A DNA stretch of 64,000 bases from Diplosphaera chodatii (Eukaryota; Chlorophyta; Trebouxiophyceae; Prasiolales; Stichococcaceae), in assembly GCA_032358165.1 (NCBI GenBank), contig JAALGY010000015.1, positions 1,612,001 through 1,676,000 of the forward strand, in the 5' to 3' direction. The notes beneath the pieces are model-generated. The model was not told the DNA's origin. It searched no databases and was given only the letters and a program-made list of their open reading frames with translations. The stretch's first letter is position 1, and the number at the start of each line of letters is the position of its first letter. Both the position numbers and the translations under genes were made by a program. Below, in pieces: positions 6,246-30,035 of this stretch.

Positions 6246-8685
6246 ATGGCCGAGGCGTCAGCCAGTGATACTCGACCCGTGAAGCGGCAGCGCATGCACG
6301 CACCTGCCTCCATAGCTGACGTCCACAAGCCACGCCTTGACACAGCAGTCGAGCAGCAGGACACACCGATCAAGCCAGAGGATTTTGTGACGCACAACGG
6401 TCTGCTCTTGGTGCGCTTTGCATCCTTCAGTGTTCAATGCAACCCCTGGCGGTGATGAATGCCATGTATTGCTGAGGAGCTGACTTGCGGATGTGATACC
6501 CGGCACGACAATGTACCACGAGGGATGCAGGTTCGACCCTACTTCTTCGACTTCCGGTTCAATGTGAAGCAGCGGCATGTTGGCCGCAACATCATCGACA
6601 TCATCACCGGGGTTGGCGCAACAGCACCCACTGTGCATTTGTGTCAGTATCCCTGTTGTGACTCACCACCTGGAAACCGCGCATGATTCCGGGTTCGGCT
6701 TCCCACCAGGAGTTTCCACTGCTGTCGAGGGAGTACGTGGAGCAGGCATTCGCAGATGGGCGGATCCGTGTGGAGGGATGCAAGGTGATCCGATCGCTGC
6801 CAATGCCTGCAGCTTCCAACCCCCTGTTGGTGGGGCAGAGCATTACCACATGGCATGCGGCATGCGACACATATGATAGTATGACAGGTCGAGAGGGACA
6901 CGCCGCTGAAGGACGGCCGGTGCATGCGCCACTTTGTGCACCGCCACGAGCCGCCGGTGCTGGACACCCCCATCGAGGCACGTTCGGTCGGATGCATGCA
7001 CTGCCCGCAGCCGTTGTATCAGCAGCGGCAAATATTTTTGGTGGCGGTTCGGACTATACTTGTGTTGGCGGCAGGTGCTGGGCATGACAGACGATGTCCT
7101 GGCGGTGTCCAAGCCGGCATGCATGCCGGTGCACGTCGCAGGCCAGCATCGCAAGAACACCGTGTGCGGACGGCTGCAGGTGCCAGCACCTCGTTCCCGC
7201 AGCACGACCTCTGTCAGGAAAGCCGCCACTCAGCATGCAAGCGCAGTCAAGCGCTGTTGCCGCCAGTATGTGCAACTGTCATCAAGTAGGCAGCTCCTTG
7301 TGTGGGCTTGCCCAGGCGCTCCGGCCGGACCTGGGCCACCTGCACCCGGTGCACCGCCTGGACAAGCCGGTCAGCGGCGTGCTGCTGCTCGCGCGGACGC
7401 CTGCCGCCGCCGCGCGCCTCAACGCCAAAGTCGCAGTACGAGTTCTGCCAGTGTGCATGACGCAGCTGCATTCCCTGCTGTGGCAGCGCGATGCCAGGGG
7501 ACTACAGCAGGGCACTGAGCCGTGCTGTGAGGCATGACGACCACGCTGTTGCCGGCAGCTTGGCAGTGTGTTGCTGCAGGGTGGGGAGCTGGACAAGGTG
7601 TACCTGGCAAGAGTGGCCGGCACCTTCCCAGAGCAGCCGCTGACGGTGGACGTGCCGCTGCTGTGGGACCCAAAGCGCAACGCTGCAACGACAGCGCCGG
7701 GGTCTGCCGTGTCCAACACCAGATCGGGCCTGAGTGCCGCCAAGTCTGCGGTCACAGCATTCCGGCGGCTCAGCGTGGCGGCAGACGGCGCCACAAGCCT
7801 GGTGGAGTGCCGGTGAGCGCGCCTCCCTTGACAGAGCGCCAGGAGCTGGACTGGGGTCATGTCGTCTGAAATGTCCGGGTCTGGACCTGTCAAAAAATTG
7901 AAGCAGAGCCTGGTCGGGCTGTTGGCTGCGCAGGCCGAAGACGGGGCGCACCCACCAGATCCGCGTGCACCTGCAGTACGCCGGCCACCCCATCGCCAAC
8001 GACTGGCAGTATGGCGGTCGCCTTGGCGTCGGCAGGAGCAGCACCGCAGACGGCGGGCAGCCTGCAGCGAAAGCCAGGCAGGCAGCCAGTGGACTGACAC
8101 CCGCGCTGCCACCAGCGACCGCACAGCCAGCTGAGCAGCCTGCGGAGTCTGCGGGGCGCGCGGCTGCAGCCAGTGCAGGGCAGCAGACTGCAGCAAATGG
8201 GAGACGCAGTGGCAATGGCAGCACGGGTGGCCCTGATGCTGCCAGCCCAGCCGCGGCGCAGCCTCCCGTGCTGTGCAGGGAGGTTCGGCCGCCGCGGCAG
8301 TTCGTGATCGATGATGCAGACGAGCTCAAGCGGGCGGCCGCAGAGTTCCTGGTGGAGCCCGGCGATCGGGACGACCTCTGCACGCACTGCCCCAGCCTCA
8401 TACCCCGTGGTGGGCAGCACATGCATCATCCTGCAGTGTCCTTGGTTCTTGTCCAGGGGCAGCGCAGGGCATAGTCCCCCTACACCCCACCATTGGTACC
8501 GTCTGTGAGCACATGCAGTCATTCACAGCACCGGCTGGTCTGCAATCGCAGGGTGGCCAACGGAGCTGAGCGTGCTGTGGCTGCATGCTCACAGCTACTC
8601 GTGCGAGGAGTGGTCCTTCACATGCCCGGCGCCAGAATGGGCTGCAGAACTCATGCCCTGCGAGGCTGTGTCTCAGGCAAAGTAG
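6246..8685 (+). CDS. RluA-family RNA pseudouridine synthase (RPUSD2/Pus9/plant PUS7-like)
   Basis: It isomerises uridine to pseudouridine in RNA; relatives modify tRNA position 32. Model exons: 6246-6410, 6531-6611, 6710-6784, 6888-6986, 7075-7179, 7316-7435, 7580-7812, 7934-8409, 8552-8685 (about 495 aa). Family landmarks in order are VRPYFFDFR, MRHFVHRHEPPVLDTPIEA, VLAVSKPACMPVH, the catalytic HPVHRLDKPVSGVLLLAR (Asp of HRLD), ELDKVYLARVAGTFP, and TGRTHQIRVHLQYAGHPI. The C-terminal tail has CTHC and LWLHAHSYSCEEWSFTCP, as in plant and animal homologues. Between the core and the tail lies an Ala/Gly/Gln-rich insert of about 90 residues. The exon 2 donor is weak (GTTGGC) and could instead sit a few codons downstream. 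No deaminase domain, as in fungal Rib2, is present. Confidence 0.88.
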
Positions 8686-21591: not shown

Positions 21592-24500
21592 ATGCAGGAG
21601 GCACAGCCATCAGGCGTGATCGTGCTGGCGGGTACTTCCAGCGGAGTTGGAAAGACGACGCTATCTGTGGGCTTGATGGCCGCGCTAAGGTGTGTTCTGC
21701 CGCTTCTGCCCTGTCGTTGTTGTTTCAGATGGTACCATCAGCAATAGGGGCATCCTGCCGATCAGTTAGCATCTTAGCTTGCTGGTGCACTACACGCTGC
21801 CTCTGCGTGTAACGTGCAGGCGACGAGGCCTCACGGTGCAGGCCTTCAAGGTTGGTCCAGGTGAGGCGCGCTCCGCCAAGGCTGTGCCGCGCACACACAG
21901 TCTGCTGTGTTCGTGGCGATGATGTATCGAGCTGCTGCACGACGCATCCAGGCCGTGCTGTTGCTGGTGCAGACTTCTTGGACCCGCTGCACCACGAGGC
22001 CGCGACGGGGCGACCGTCCATCAACTTGGACGGCTGGATGATGGACCGGGAGCAGAATCTGGCAGCCTTCCGCCGCGCCACTGCGGACGCAGACATAGCA
22101 GTGGTTGAGGGCGTCATGGGCCTGTTCGACGGCCGCGACGGTACCAGCGAGGATGGCAGCACAGCTCAGATGGCCAAGTGGCTGGGGGCGCCGGTGTTGC
22201 TGGTGCTGGACTGCTGGGCGCTGGCACGATCGGCGGCCGCCATGGTCAAGGGCTACATGGTGACCGGCTCCACTCGCAGCGCTGCAAGCTTGCCGCCCAT
22301 TGCAAGTTGCTGCTCGCCTACTCAGCGTGCTGGCACGTCTACAGCCTCTCCACCTGCCATGTGCGCTGCCTTCGCAGGAGTTTGACCAGGAGCTGCGTGT
22401 AGGCGGGTTGCTGCTGAACCGTGTGGGTGGCGCCGCGCACACGAAGTGGCTGCAGGATGCCATCAGCTCGTCGGGCGTTGATGCGCGGTTTCTGGGCGGC
22501 ATCCCCAAGGTGGGGGCTGCGGGGGTCCAAACACTTGGGAAGTGCTGGAGGCCCCGAACACCAGAGTGTTGGGCGCTTGACACAAGTCACCAGTCAGTGT
22601 CATGCGCTGTGCACATGGTCACTGCAGGACGACAGCGTGATGGTCAAGGAGCGGTACCTGGGCCTGCACATGCCCGGGGAGGAGGGCGTGCCCGTTGACT
22701 ACCTGCAGCGGCTGGCAGAGCTGCTGGAGAAGAGCGTAGACATGGACGCGGTGTTGGACGTCGCCAGATCTGCCCGCATACCAGCAGCACCAGCTGGCGC
22801 TGTGCCGCGGCCCGTGGCAGCGCCTGACGATGCACTGACCATCGCGGTGGCGCAGGATGCCGCGTTTGGCTTCTACTACCAGGAGTAAGCTCCCTGTGCC
22901 TGGTGCCAACAGTCATGTTCTCACTATCAGTTGCTGTAATCAGTAGTGCCAGCTTTGGGTGCTGATCACAGCCTGGACACCTGTCTAGGAACCTGGCACT
23001 GCTGGAAGCCGCTGGCGCCCGTCTGGTACGCTTCTCGCCAATGGAGGAGCCGCTGCCGCCCGGCATCTCGGGTCTGTACCTGGGCGGTGGCTACCCAGAG
23101 CGCCATGCGCGACAGCTGGCTTCCAACCATGGGGTCAAGGCAGCCATTGCGGCATTCGCGTGCGCTGGTGGCGTGGTGTATGCCGAGTGTGGCGGCCTAA
23201 TGTACCTCAGCCAGAGCCTGCAGCCACTGGATAACCTTCCGGCAGCCATGGGTGCGATGTGCACCGTGCTGTTATCGTCAATCAGCAGTGCCATGAGAGG
23301 TCCTTGTACATCTAGTACATCTGCAAGCAACCTCAAACCCTCTTCAAGGATACCTGTCATCGTGCAGTGGGCGTGTTCCCCTTCCGCACGGTCATGACAG
23401 CTGGCTCCATGAAGATGGGGTATGTGGAGGTGGAAACGCAGCAGCACTGCCGGTTATTCCCGCCAGGCGCACGTGTGCGGGGCCATGTGTTCCACTTCTC
23501 AGAGATGGTGCAGGAGCAGGTGAAGCCGACAACATAATGCAGTTGTGCACTAGTCCAGTTCGGCACGTGTTGGACGCCTGGCTCACAATGTTGATGTCCA
23601 ACTGTACCAGATTGTCAGCGGGCTGAGTGGCCTTCCGGATACCAGCGGCCGCGGCGCATGGGAGCACGCCTATCGCGCCACCTTGCAGACGCCTGGTGTG
23701 TCCCCCCTTCCCGCTGAGCTTGGCAGATGCAGTGTAGGCGTGCTTCAGCAGTAGTTGCTGCAAACTTGTGCTTCTGACTGTCATTAGATCACGGGCAGTT
23801 CTTCAGCACAGGCAGGCACTGCCAAATGTGCTGGACTTGCAGGTGCAGAGCCTGTGGACGAAGGCTATGCCTTTGGGAACGTGCTGGCCAGCTATGTGCA
23901 CCTACACTTTGGCAGCGCGCCCAGCTTTGCAGCAGCCCTTGTTGCACGGTGTCGCGAGGTGGACATGGCCGCAGCAGACGCAGCAGCAAAGGCAGCAGCC
24001 CAGTCAGCCACCCTGCACCACTGTGGCAGCCATGAGGGGCACCACAGCCGCGGCAGCCACGGGAGCCAGGGCAGTGGTCGACGGCTGCATCACTCTGCCG
24101 GGTCCATGGTGCATGTGCGCAGCACGCCCAATCTGGCAGACATGGCACACCAGACGCAGCTGCCTGGGCAAAGGTGAGCGCCCTGCAGCACCGTCACAGA
24201 AGCAAGGCGCTGAGCCATACATCATATGATGCTGGCCATCACATCGTGCTGTTATGCCTGCTGCAGGCGGACCACGAAGAGTGACCAGTCTTCAGAGGAT
24301 GACGGTCACTCATCCAGCTCTGATGTCGTTTCAGCAACCAGCATGCGGCAGTATAGCGGCAGCAGGCATGAGGACACCAATGCTGTCAATGCGCACTTAC
24401 AGGACGCATTCTGGGCAGACAGCAGGGTACGTTTTCGACGGCTGTCATCGCACTTGCCTGACAGCAGCAGCACTGCTAGTCATCAATACCTGATGCATTG

Positions 24501-27330
24501 CAACGGGTGCGACCTGTCGCTTCAGCTCGATACACGACGTGGTCCAGGAACTCAAGCGACTGCTCAGCAGGCCAGGCTCACCTGCGACGACACTGCAGCA
24601 GGTCGGCAGCATGACAGACGTGTACAGCGCAACCAACGGCTCGCTACCTGCGTCACCCCGGATGGGTCAGTCGACTGCCGTAGGCGCAGGGTGTCTGCAA
24701 TGCCTATGGAATTCGATTCCCTGAGGCTCTGCTTCAGCTTATGTCAGTAGATACTGCTCAATAATCGCGCCTTGTATAGACAAACCACTGTCCAATGCAG
24801 GTCGCCAGCATTCAGCGTTTTGCGAGAGTCGGCATTCAGCCAGCATGTCACGGTCAGTCAGCGGCATGCTGCCAGGCAGCCCATCCGCAGAACCGCTCAA
24901 CCTCCAACGCAGTGCATCTGCTGTGAGTGCGCGTCAGCTCTGCTGCTGTGAAAGATCTTGACAACCTGACACCTTTGAGGTCCTGTGGGGTGCCTATCCC
25001 ACAAGCATGCCGTTGCCAGGCCGAGTGCTCATCTGGTTTCTACAGCAGGTGTCGCCCTCCGGACATGCTGGTGGTGCTGGGCGGTCAGGCAGCCACCACA
25101 GCAACCACGGCACACATCGGCCGACCAACCTTATGCGGGATCGCATGCACGCCAGTGCCTCAGTCCCAGGCGCGCCAGGGTCGTCAAGATTCATAGGCCA
25201 TGTCATGCAGCTGGTCACAAGCATGCCAATGAAGCAGTGTACTGCACAATCACACACACATCTCCAGTGCCGTCGGCATGCATGCTGCGTCATGTAAGGC
25301 AGCTGGCGTTGTACACTGCAGACCACATGGACAAGCGGGGCCGGCACCCCAGGACCTGGCCAGGCGCGGGCAGGAATGGCAGCCTGCAGATGCCGGATGG
25401 CCTCATGCACTCGCGCTCAGCGCCGCTGGTCAACGACCACATCGTCAGCCTGCTGCCCAGCGGCACAGAAATGCTGTTTGCCCTGGGGCTTGGCAACAGG
25501 TGCTGTACTCGACATCATGCTTCGTTCATGTGTTCCTCATGCAGAAACATTGTGTACCGGCGCAATGTTCCTGAACGTCTGCGACCTCGATCAACATATG
25601 GCTTAGTGTATGCAGCGCATGCTGATGCAGGGTGGTCGGCGTGTCAGACCATTGTGACTGGCCGCCCGAGGCGGCGCAGCTGCCCAGGGTCAGCCGCTCC
25701 ACGGTGGACTGCAGGTCCATGTCGCCCGCCGAGGTGGAGGCCCAGATGCAGCGCTGCAAGCAGCAGGTGTGGTTCGTCACGGACCTGGCCCTCTGTTCTG
25801 CGGGCTGGGTGTGCGCATGCCGCGCAGTGATCCTCCAAAGTCAGTCCAGCTGGAGCACCTGGTTCCTGCAGAATGGTGCCAAGCTGAAGCCAGAGTATAA
25901 TCAGAAGTGCAAGCGTGGCCTGTGCCGTGTGTTGCAGGGCGTCAGCCCGTTCGAGGTGGACGAGCAGGCGCTCGCGACGCTGGCACCGGGGCTGGTGCTC
26001 ACGCAGGACGCCTGCGCGACGTGCGACGCGGATGCCGGCGGCGTGGCGGCGGCCCTGGATCGGGCCGGGCTGGCGGGGAGCGACGCCAGGGCGCCCGCCT
26101 GCGTGCTGACCCTGGCGCCCCGCACCCTCGCGCAGGCGCTGGACAGCATCCTCGAGGCACGCCCACCGCAGCACCCCCCGCGCACCCTGCCATGCGTCTG
26201 TGAAGCTGGGCACGGTTCAACACACTGTGCAGTCAGCGTCGCTGAGAGTCAGGGTGGGCAGGGGGCCCCGTGGGTGGCGTGCAAGGTAGCAGCAAGCTGC
26301 TGCAACCGGCGTCACAGTGCGTTGCAGGTGGGGCATGCTGCGGGTGCTGCGCACGAGGCGGCTGTGCTGGTGGAGCGCCTGCGTGCGCGGCTGCGGGCTG
26401 TCGCCGCCGCAGTGGCGCCGGCACAGCGACGGCCGCGGGTCCTCTCGCTCGAGGGCATCACGCCCCTGGTCCTGGGTGCGTCGTGCAGTCCAGTACATGT
26501 GCGCGCCATCTAGCGCCCGCATGCACGCTGCAGCAGGGGCTCGTTCGCTGCCGTGGTGTTGCTCGACCATGATTGGCGTGCCCACTGCAGGTGGCCAGTG
26601 GCTGCCGGACGTCAAGCAGCTTGCCGGCGGCTCCGATGAGTGGCAGCAGCCCGGCGACCCGCCGCTGCGCATCAGCTGGGACCAGGCGAGCGTTCTGGAC
26701 GATTCCCAGCATGCAGCGGGGGTCCAGCATGGCTCTGAGCTCCTGTGGGTCATCTGTGGGAGCGGACAGCTTGCATGACACCTGTGCTGACAGTCTGTCG
26801 ACCTGTACCGGCACAGGTGCGGGCGTATGCGCCGGAGGTGCTGGTGCTGTCGCCGTGCGGCGCAAACCTGGAGTCGGGCGTGCAGCAGGCCGCTGAGCTG
26901 GCGGCGCTGCCGGGCTGGTGGGCGCTGCCGGCGGTGCGCTGCGGCCGCGTGTTCGTGGCGGACCACAGCCTGTTCAGCCGCCCCGGCCCCAGGTCAGCCA
27001 TCCCTTTCATTCAAAGACTGCTGCATCCCAGTTCGGACGTGTGTGGAGGCATTCCAGCGCCTGTATGCACTTGCAAGCCAACTCCACGAGATGCACGCCT
27101 GTCAGCATGGTCGTCTGCGCCATGCTGTTCGTCCGTCGAGAAGTAGAAGGAGGTCGTGCCCGCCTTGCTGGTGCAGGCTGGTGGACGGCGTGGAGGCGGT
27201 GGCGAGGATGCTGCACCCGGAGCTGGTCAGCTGCCGCATCCCAGAGGGCGCCGTGCGCAAGCTGTCGCTCAGCGGCGGCCAGCGCTGCCGGCAGTCCACG
27301 CTCCCTGGCTTCTTCACCGCGTACACCTGA
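21592..27330 (+). CDS. Cobyrinate a,c-diamide synthase (CobB/CbiA) fused to a BtuF-type corrinoid/siderophore-binding domain
   Basis: Model exons: 21592-21689, 21820-21860, 21973-22259, 22378-22509, 22628-22884, 22989-23251, 23368-23519, 23611-23695, 23843-24173, 24267-24426, 24548-24665, 24801-24922, 25049-25182, 25299-25499, 25631-25766, 25938-26195, 26328-26475, 26591-26685, 26817-26992, 27177-27330 (about 1115 aa, all in phase). Residues 1 to about 465 match CobB/CbiA, which amidates two carboxylates of a cobyrinic-type macrocycle using ATP and glutamine. Visible are P-loop GTSSGVGKTT, KVGPDFLDPLHHEAATGRPS, GLYLGGGYPE, glutaminase nucleophile in VYAECGGLMYL (Cys near 339) and GNVLASYVHLHFGS. 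A Ser/His/Arg-rich linker follows. From about 770, a BtuF-like fold: HIVSLLPSGTEMLFALGLG, GVSDHCDWPPEA, LAPGLVLTQDACATCD, GQWLPDVKQLAGG, VLVLSPCGANLE, RPGPRLVDGVE. No secretion signal is obvious at the N-terminus. The exon at 26591 ends at a GC donor or a weak GT donor. If the linker exons are wrong, these are two adjacent genes. Confidence 0.82.
24174..25328 (+). other. Low-complexity linker region between CobB and BtuF modules
   Basis: This stretch decides whether the locus is one gene or two. A frame-preserving exon chain crosses it (24267-24426, 24548-24665, 24801-24922, 25049-25182, 25299 onward), encoding Ser/Arg/His/Asp-rich sequence with no known fold. Against this, the CobB reading frame meets a TGA at 24175-24177 if the donor at 24174 is not used, and an ATG at 25329 could start a separate BtuF-like protein about 40 residues before its conserved domain. 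The fusion is favoured because four consecutive introns fit in phase. Confidence 0.5.
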
Positions 27331-28212: not shown

Positions 28213-29610
28213 TCAGCCCCGCATTGCGGCTGCAGCACGGGTGGACGTGGTGCGGTGCACCTCGCGATCACCATTGGTCTTCTCGTCGGCGTTGCCATCG
28301 TCGCCATTGTCTGTGCGCTCGCGGTCCATCTCGCCCATGTAACGCTGGCGTGGGCGCGCGATCCGCTTGGTGGACTCCTCCATCATCTCCCTCCAGTGGC
28401 AGCTCCATCCCACCGCGCGGGCAACGGCAAAGAGAACCGTGAACATGCTCACGGGGATGCCCAGCGCCCGCAGCACAATGCCCGAGAAGAAGTCCACATT
28501 TGGGTACAGGCCCCGCTTCACAAAGTACTCGTCCTGAGTGGCAATCTTCTCCAGCTCCACCGCAATCTCCAGCAGCGGATCCTCCTGAATGTCCAGCTGC
28601 TTGAACAGCTGGTGGCAGATGCTCTGCATGACCTTGGCACGAGGGTCAAATGTCTTGTAGACGCGGTGGCCAAAGCCCATGAGGCGGAAGGAGTCCTCCT
28701 TGTCCTTGGACCGTGCAATGGCCTTTTCTATGTTGTCCTTCGTACCAATTTCCTCCAGCATTTCGATGACAGCCTCATTTGCGCCACCATGCGCAGGGCC
28801 CCAGAGCGTAGCGATACCAGATGCGATGCATGCATACGGGTTTGCCTGGCTAGACCCTGCGTTGCGGACGGTGGAGGTGGAGGCGTTCTGCTCGTGGTCC
28901 ATGTGCAGGATCAGGAACAGCTCCAGGGCGCGCACTTTGATTGGATTGATCTCATACGGCTCCGTTGGCACGCTGAACATCATCATCATGAGGTTCTCCA
29001 CATAGCTCAGATGGTTCCGGGGGTACATGATTGGCTGCCCAACGGCTGTTTTGTAGGCAATGGCCGCCAATGTCGGCATTTTGGCAATGATGCGCAGCAC
29101 AGCCATATCCCGCTGCTCGGGATCGTTCACATCGGCAGCATCGCGGTAAAATGCGGACAGCGCCCCCACAACACCCACCATGACTGCCATTGGCGCAGCG
29201 TCATGCCGGAAACCCCTGTAGAACTGGATCAGCTGCTCTGGCACCATCGTGTGACGTGTGATGTCATGGTTGAACTCCTTTTTCTGTGAGGGTGTGGGCA
29301 GCTCGCCATTCAACAGCAGGTAGCAGCTCTCCACGAAGTCGCCAGCGCCACCTGGCGCGGGATCTGCCAGCTGCTCGATCGAGTACCCGCGGTACAGCAG
29401 CTTGCCCTTCTTGCCATCAATATACGTGATGGTTGACTCGCAAGCGGCTGTGCTGTTGAACCCGGGATCAAAGGTGCAAATACCATGCCCGTTGTATAGC
29501 TTCCGGATGTCGACAAACTTCTGCCCTGCCGAATCCACCAGGTATGGCAGCTCCACCTCGGTGCCATCCGGCATCACGAGCTTGGCGCTTTGTTCGCCAT
29601 CCTCCACCAT
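28213..29610 (-). CDS. Citrate synthase, bacterial GltA-like type II, intronless
   Basis: It condenses acetyl-CoA and oxaloacetate to citrate. A single uninterrupted frame encodes about 465 aa from the ATG at 29610. The sequence follows bacterial GltA almost block by block: [91 protein letters not shown] and [17 protein letters not shown] (catalytic His residues), [10 protein letters not shown] (catalytic Asp), [11 protein letters not shown] hydrophilic tail of about 40 residues follows and does not end in a peroxisomal tripeptide. The frame stays open about 33 codons upstream without an ATG, and a splice acceptor-like AAAG at about 29632 could link a short targeting exon, so the true start and the compartment are open. 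Most neighbours have an intron every 100-200 bp. Confidence 0.9.
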
Positions 29611-30035
29611 GTTGGCGCCTATTCCGTGAACCTTTGTGAGAAGTAACCTAAGTTCACCTGCGCGTTCTGATTTAGTCTTACCGCAGCGATCGCAAACGGC
29701 CTTTGTCACGTTTGCGTTTGATAGGTGCTGACTTGGATTCCTTGCAGGTGCAGACCATCAGGCAGGACACCTCAAAGAGCATTCCCATGCCACCTCTGAT
29801 GATGACGCTGTTTGTCATCAGTTTCAAGTTTCACTCGGAACACCTGACGTCACAAAGGGTTACATGGCCAAGACCTCCAGGCATACACGATGCATGACAG
29901 GCTGATGACTGCGCTAGGTACGGTACAAACATGCAGGCGGTCCAGCCAAGTAAGAATCATCCTGACTGCCAGCAACATACACGCACATGATGGCAGCGAC
30001 TGCAATCTCGCTGGCAGTGCAAAGATCGTCAGCCA
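29611..30035. other. Intergenic, citrate synthase 5' region / E2 3' region
   Basis: 425 bp between two tandem minus-strand genes. It should hold the citrate synthase promoter and possibly a short leader exon. Candidate leader ATGs lie near 29790, but none is convincing. Confidence 0.35.

Follow-up and report, generated by a model that had tools for sequence, protein, structure and literature searches.

Why would a green alga carry a gene that joins an enzyme of the cobyrinate a,c-diamide synthase (CobB) type to a domain of the vitamin B12/haem-binding fold, when eukaryotes, to our knowledge, do not make B12? We present here an analysis of such a gene from Diplosphaera chodatii, located in a 64,000-nucleotide stretch of assembly GCA_032358165.1 (contig JAALGY010000015.1, positions 1,612,001 to 1,676,000 of the forward strand). 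This stretch is called the window below, and positions without a contig or locus handle are counted from its first letter. CobB and the binding domain lie in one intact gene. Fusions with intact catalytic motifs are predicted across many algae and on into mosses, liverworts, and lycophytes, and relatives of the fusion are predicted in water moulds also; these groups are not known as B12 makers. A literature search of openly accessible papers, partial in coverage, returned no published description of a fusion of this kind.

The fused gene occupies positions 21592 to 27330 of the plus strand, from its start ATG at 21592 to the last base of its stop codon at 27330, the limits placed to the base by an earlier annotation made from the sequence alone (the first-pass annotation). 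Hand splicing gave 20 exons, a coding sequence of 3273 nucleotides, and a single open frame of 1090 codons. Exons 1 to 10 are at 21592-21689, 21820-21860, 21973-22259, 22378-22509, 22628-22884, 22989-23251, 23368-23519, 23611-23695, 23843-24173, and 24267-24426, and exons 11 to 20 are at 24548-24665, 24801-24922, 25049-25169, 25322-25499, 25631-25766, 25938-26156, 26328-26475, 26591-26685, 26817-26992, and 27177-27330; all were set by frame and by match to a second copy of the gene. The acceptors of the 19 introns are all AG, and the donors are GT in 16 and GC in 3. The 1090-residue protein contains, in order, a CobB domain (amino acids 10 to 475), a low-complexity linker, and a PF01497 binding domain (amino acids 761 to 1075). 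All motifs named in the first-pass annotation fall in this one spliced frame, and its description of an intron-rich nuclear gene encoding a fusion agrees with the 19 introns, with the same exons and frame in the second copy, and with scores above the Pfam cut-offs for both domains. The end of exon 13, first placed at 25238 (GT donor), was moved to 25169 (GC donor), the only one of the two that leaves the second copy in frame. The Pfam and NCBIfam scores, the PDB sequence search, and the homologue listing were made with the first model of 1113 residues, which is 23 linker residues longer than the final one. The GC-donor introns begin at 25170, 26157, and 26686; those after exons 16 and 18 have GC in the second copy too, and the third has GT there.

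A GATase_3 search of the genome (85.6 Mb in 55 contigs) found two places only, the window gene on contig C13 and the second copy on contig C53 (stretch L085). The second copy aligns along the whole gene, keeps all 20 exons and the frame, and, with exon 13 mended, has 1088 stop-free codons. Nucleotide identity over ungapped columns is 78 to 98% in exons and 49 to 86% in introns (calculated with the first exon-13 boundary), and its acceptors are likewise all AG. Between the copies, amino acid identity and the ratio of nonsynonymous to synonymous substitution rates (dN/dS, NG86) are 96.6% and 0.051 for the CobB part, 83.4% and 0.222 for the linker, and 94.6% and 0.141 for the binding domain. The linker (23953 to 25434, plus strand; 285 amino acids in parts of exons 9 to 14, Ser/Gly/His-rich by eye) is in frame in both copies and is, with its dN/dS, therefore coding and under selection. 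We infer a single mRNA for both halves. Bacterial contamination is very unlikely and was set aside, because the gene has 20 exons and the diverged second copy has matching exons and the same neighbouring gene; the long residence in the algal genome proposed in the first pass is upheld on these grounds. GC content across the window is 0.555 to 0.641 in 2-kb steps.

The CobB half (21592 to 23952, plus strand; exons 1 to 9) consists of a CbiA ATP-binding half and a GATase_3 glutaminase half, and with its dN/dS of 0.051 it is the most constrained part of this alga's protein. It scores 473.5 bits against NCBIfam CobB (NF002204; cut-off, 254), above the equivalog cut-off, and 106.9 and 69.2 bits against Pfam GATase_3 (PF07685; cut-off, 27) and CbiA (PF01656; cut-off, 25.4). 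The P-loop AGTSSGVGKTT (amino acids 13 to 23) is at 21628 to 21660, the intron-spanning KVGPDFLDP block at 21848-21986, the YAECGGLMYL glutaminase block (amino acids 336 to 345), whose Cys is presumed to be the nucleophile, at 23179 to 23208, and the ASYVHLHF block that closes the GATase_3 domain (amino acids 454 to 461) at 23887 to 23910, all on the plus strand. The His of ASYVHLHF is presumably catalytic, by analogy with other class I amidotransferases. These blocks and the NF002204 score bear out the CobB identity assigned in the first pass. Like CobB/CbiA proteins (NF002204, TIGR00379), to whose bacterial members the domain is about 50% identical, it has the two-half layout and the P-loop and Cys blocks; it differs from them in the added binding domain, in replacing an Arg before NLD that is common in bacterial members, and in its host, a eukaryote with no further corrin-synthesis gene found among those searched for. 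The Ni-sirohydrochlorin a,c-diamide synthase CfbB (NF033195) is homologous and performs the same kind of amidation, and the fusion scores 388.5 bits against it, under the cut-off of 560. In a PDB sequence search the CobB half had weak PdxT matches only (E of about 0.002).

The binding domain (25435 to 27282, plus strand; exons 14 to 20; dN/dS, 0.141) has the class III periplasmic-binding-protein (PBP) fold and scores 43.1 bits against Peripla_BP_2 (PF01497; cut-off, 27.5), the family that also holds BtuF and the haem-binding class III PBPs. Its best bacterial matches, PBPs from Candidatus Entotheonella and SAR202-type bacteria, share about 50% of its residues. Its plus-strand motifs are a DHIVSLLPSG block (25435-25464), a GVSDHCDWP loop (25638 to 25664) whose Cys is invariant in a 36-row alignment, a TQDACATCD loop (26001 to 26027) whose CxxC pair is at least 90% conserved at both Cys in that alignment, and an intron-spanning GGQWLPDVKQLAGG block (26475-26631). 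The CxxC pair is absent in Marchantia, for one, and Physcomitrium has the version SQDTCEQCD, which escaped our pattern, so that the pattern count of this loop is too low. In one alignment (A1) the row for window positions 25350-25499 had been taken in the wrong frame and was disregarded. In the PDB sequence search the top-ranked match, 5ysc, a vitamin-B12-binding protein, fell in the binding half. An AlphaFold2 model of a bacterial relative (P0140; predicted local distance difference test [pLDDT], 93) matched haem PBPs and BtuF about equally. The model of the Myrmecia fusion (P0002) has a folded CobB domain to about residue 489, a stretch from 491 to 661, the counterpart of the linker, with pLDDT below 50, and a folded binding domain; its best PDB match was again BtuF 5ysc, with CTP synthases and MurT/GatD lower in the list, and its domain orientation is unreliable (predicted template modelling score, 0.53). 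The C-terminal domain is a putative binder of a corrinoid or haem-type ligand. Of the BtuF-type domain named in the first pass, the B12/haem-binding fold is retained (PF01497, PDB neighbours) and the BtuF equivalog is not (NF002894, 30.6 bits against a cut-off of 234). The domain further differs from BtuF in its Cys loops, CD[WYF]P and TQDxCxxC, and of its 18 best relatives among the matches listed, one of which (P0217) is eukaryotic, 8 lack a leader and open directly with the first strand, and the rest are extended at the N terminus. CBA1, an algal B12 uptake protein, is reported to have a BtuF-like structure and to serve algal B12 use, and it has a signal peptide and endoplasmic reticulum targeting (PMC10828217); we set it beside the fusion by description rather than by sequence, and CobB is unnamed in the main text of that paper.

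The first-pass annotation did not recognize the two-domain protein from elsewhere, and a homology search of both halves, as it had proposed, shows that the arrangement is not peculiar to this alga. Counts here and below refer to the best 120 of 403 homologues found, most listed without an organism name, so that a group's absence from them is no proof of its absence. Both domains occur together in 113 of the 120, in the order CobB then binding domain in 112 and reversed in one (P0097). The binding domain was undetected in the remaining seven: P0022 (a record marked as partial), P0087, P0092, P0094, P0100, P0103, and P0117 (which clusters with bacteria). Among the matches listed, the fusion is held by chlorophytes, streptophyte algae, liverworts, mosses, lycophytes, a haptophyte, dinoflagellates, and oomycetes. 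Labels name the algae Myrmecia, Trebouxia, Micractinium, Ostreobium, Bryopsis, Chloropicon, Pavlova, Prorocentrum, and Polarella, the land plants Marchantia, Riccia, Physcomitrium, Ceratodon, Selaginella, and Diphasiastrum, and the oomycetes Aphanomyces, Achlya, and Saprolegnia; Chlorokybus, Spirogloea, Mesotaenium, and Tetraselmis striata were named by our reading of portal codes. A CobB-like predicted protein has been reported from the haptophyte Chrysochromulina brevifilum (PMC4057078), with no fusion mentioned in the accessible part of that report.

Maximum-likelihood trees were rooted at the midpoint, and many of their rows are metagenomic and are called eukaryote because they bear the fusion. 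All 32 sampled fusion-type CobB domains fall on one side of a branch in the CobB tree (61 rows; support, 100/99), and the 22 sampled eukaryote-type domains do the same in the binding-domain tree (63 rows; 100/99), next to Candidatus Entotheonella and SAR202-type bacteria. The search for donor lineages suggested in the first pass has thus given bacterial neighbours for the binding domain and one eukaryote clade for each half. Both trees are compatible with a single fusion event. In the CobB tree the streptophytes, Chlorokybus excepted, make up one clade (100/100). The binding-domain tree, unlike the CobB tree, places the dinoflagellate-oomycete pair and P0052 within the streptophytes, beside Spirogloea, on a weakly supported branch (89/75), and Pavlova clusters with chlorophytes in either tree; these placements argue against simple descent, and the later spread of the gene may have involved transfer among eukaryotes as well as descent.

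Bacterial and archaeal gene neighbourhoods were examined by scanning genome contigs with the binding-domain alignment, which gave 66 loci, many ending early at contig ends. CobB or other corrin genes lie near the binding-domain relative in 12 of the 66, a minority that includes seven loci from related Chloroflexota and that stands without a background rate. At one locus (L001) the binding-domain gene overlaps CobB, and at another (L037) it directly precedes CobB at a contig end. Both kinds of protein are thus side by side, as in the fusion, and differ from it in being separate genes in the opposite order; the L001 CobB is not sister to the eukaryote CobB clade. At a Thermoplasmata locus (L050), genes for CobB, cob(I)yrinate a,c-diamide adenosyltransferase, CobS, and CbiB exceed the NCBIfam cut-offs, and a fragment of CobQ and genes of CbiS-like and CobY-like type fall short of theirs. 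BtuR-, CobQ-, CbiB-, and CobS-like matches lie near L051, and a CobS-like match lies near L060. CbiF- and CbiG-like genes lie near the seven Chloroflexota loci (in representatives, CobM/CbiF is over the cut-off and CbiG-like is under it). Four loci were dropped from the count: L002 (a weak CbiF-like match of 42 bits) and L024, L042, and L054 (a CobD-like aminotransferase only). CobB was looked for in 13 genomes that contain loci of the binding-domain relatives; 11 gave a match, which in 9 is over the cut-off. Neighbours in bacteria that form one protein in eukaryotes argue for one pathway. The commonest neighbours overall are a flavin-reductase-like protein (38 of 66; PF01613 in a representative) and an MFS protein (37 of 66), a conserved neighbourhood seen mainly at Chloroflexota loci; neither protein on its own points to corrinoids. 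At L001, a different PF01497 protein (7119-8132) follows CobB in the same gene group.

In the alga's own genome, exons over the cut-off for METH (PF02965) were found on contigs C15 and C47, METE exons (PF01717) on C13 and C22, and cobalamin adenosyltransferase exons (PF01923) on C32 and C21. The adenosyltransferase occurs without a methylmalonyl-CoA mutase match, and a user of adenosylcobalamin is not evident. A six-frame, exon-by-exon search, which can miss genes, found neither this mutase nor CobS nor, beyond the two fusion copies, any GATase_3 gene of the kind expected for CobQ; these negatives carry little weight, since the same method also gave no PF01497 match, a false negative. Remodelling algae, namely Chlamydomonas reinhardtii and Pavlova lutheri, have CobT, CobS, and CobC (Helliwell and others, PMC4850488); CbiZ and CbiB were not found in the algal genomes analysed there, and the accessible text of that paper does not contain CobB. 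Adenosyl cobyrinate hexaamide is named among Chlorella metabolites (PMC11356416), a report on which we do not rely. The corrinoid link drawn in the first pass gains from these B12-related genes and from the bacterial neighbourhoods.

We favour, with a probability of roughly 45%, the reading that the protein is a probably cytosolic, tethered corrinoid-handling amidotransferase that acts in B12 salvage or repair rather than in de novo synthesis. The C-terminal domain would capture a corrinoid or close tetrapyrrole within the cell, the flexible linker would hand the captured macrocycle to the CobB domain, and the latter would spend ATP and glutamine to amidate free acetate side chains (a and/or c). 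B12-importing algae could so salvage or repair under-amidated or damaged corrinoids for methionine synthase; repair of c-acid or lactone forms of B12 is an idea of our own. The activity, substrate, location, and role are inferred from sequence. The amidotransferase reading draws on the CobB cut-off being passed and the CfbB cut-off not, on the identity of about 50%, and on the kept motifs. A cytosolic location is probable because the P-loop sits near the N terminus: in the 89 of 120 homologues with a pattern-found P-loop, it starts within 15 residues in 54 and within 30 in 74. The presumed nucleophile Cys is present in 98 of 111 pattern-readable homologues (9 further of the 120 are unreadable) and in all 115 new proteins of a CobB-only search (mostly bacterial by name, at least two algal).

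Several observations weigh against this reading. The fold comparison ends in a near tie that fails to separate corrinoid from haem binders, CobB matches are absent from 2 of the 13 genomes in which CobB was looked for (G002 and G013), and loci with corrin genes are a minority with a strong Chloroflexota share. With no CobS and no second GATase_3 gene found in the alga, a standard synthesis or remodelling route, and the next enzyme for an a,c-diamide, are not evident, and the amidating or remodelling role put forward in the first pass stays a proposal. The Cys is gone in 13 of the 111 readable homologues, in Elliptochloris, Riccia (two), Ostreobium, Bryopsis, Selaginella, Diphasiastrum, Tetraselmis GSL018, and five others. 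Mosses and vascular plants are reported to have lost B12 metabolism, as are liverworts, these depending on CblB and CblJ, and METH is reported among land plants only from hornworts (Dorrell and others, PMC11439496). The loss of the Cys in Riccia, Selaginella, and Diphasiastrum fits that report, and the gene seems to be decaying in land plants; the retention of the Cys in mosses and Marchantia does not fit. Finally, NLD is preceded by an Arg in most readable proteins of the CobB-only search (106 of 114) but in few readable ones of the fusion search (2 of 103, one of the two being the bacterial P0117), and the near-absence of this Arg from fusions may reflect a changed substrate. This Arg proved unusable as a marker of corrin versus Ni-sirohydrochlorin enzymes, because archaeal CobB-like proteins vary there and no protein in the 145 genomes searched passes the CfbB cut-off.

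Such a substrate might be the cell's own metallo-sirohydrochlorin or siroheme, which CfbB-like chemistry would turn into an unreported amidated isobacteriochlorin. CfbB amidates Ni-sirohydrochlorin at the same a and c positions, and it is said to resemble CobB very closely (PMC7242693). The missing Arg leaves room for a new substrate, mosses and Marchantia keep the Cys without reported METH, and the route would need no CobQ. We judge it unlikely, given the CfbB score below its cut-off and the corrin genes in bacterial neighbourhoods, which point to corrinoids. Siroheme is made in plastids, and a plastid transit peptide is not evident when the P-loop so often starts within 15 residues of the N terminus. 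Seed plants need siroheme, and none is named among the 120 listed homologues. It is similarly improbable that the CobB half is non-catalytic, or becoming so, in a protein that serves as a corrinoid chaperone, sensor, or store. The 13 homologues without the Cys and the absence of the P-loop Lys in Ostreobium and Bryopsis would agree with this, as would extra domains in other lineages (below) that suggest an adaptor; set against them are the strong constraint and intact catalytic blocks of the CobB half in this alga and the Cys kept by most homologues, some losses of which may be gene-model errors. A pair of separate neighbouring genes in place of the fusion is highly improbable: P0217 (422 amino acids, with an MMETSP transcriptome label) is a binding domain alone with its own Met, perhaps a fragment, whereas the linker stays in frame over six exons in both copies under selection, and nearly all listed homologues are predicted as fusions in the same order, at least one of them (P0052) labelled a complete open reading frame with an apparent transcript accession.

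Oomycete and dinoflagellate fusions also carry Kelch repeats and DUF5522. The DUF5522 motif CCGxxCRHC occurs in 39 of the 120 listed homologues, and Kelch repeats were confirmed in both that were scanned (P0047 and P0041). This alga has a separate Kelch-DUF5522 gene, at C45:2099925-2100026 and C17:1826931-1827032, with the motif RPCCGNACRHCPWGHENV; these exons adjoin Kelch-like exons. Set against the C-terminal half of the fusions from oomycetes and dinoflagellates, the match is strong for DUF5522 and weak for Kelch. Fusion in one lineage and separation in another suggest a working partnership, in which the Kelch-DUF5522 protein would be the predicted partner of the fusion. On a bolder and rather doubtful view, the three parts would form an ancient eukaryotic tetrapyrrole-tailoring system that produces or regenerates an amidated cofactor of the corrinoid or sirohydrochlorin type, new to eukaryotes; the system would have been inherited early or spread among algae and would be decaying in land plants. 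If these predictions hold, such eukaryotes either amidate imported corrinoids, a salvage or repair step for which we found no description, or make a novel amidated tetrapyrrole. Both ideas can be tested in a METH-using green alga, Marchantia, and Physcomitrium, through the fusion and its predicted partner.

The neighbouring gene in the window (28213 to 29757, minus strand) is an open reading frame judged citrate-synthase-like by eye, without a family-library scan, and DNA matching it also adjoins the second fusion copy. Five families in this genome (GATase_3, METH, METE, adenosyltransferase, and DUF5522) have matches each on two contigs, and the synonymous divergence (dS) of the fusion pair is about 0.3. 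Together with the common neighbour, these pairs suggest that the genome is doubled or hybrid.

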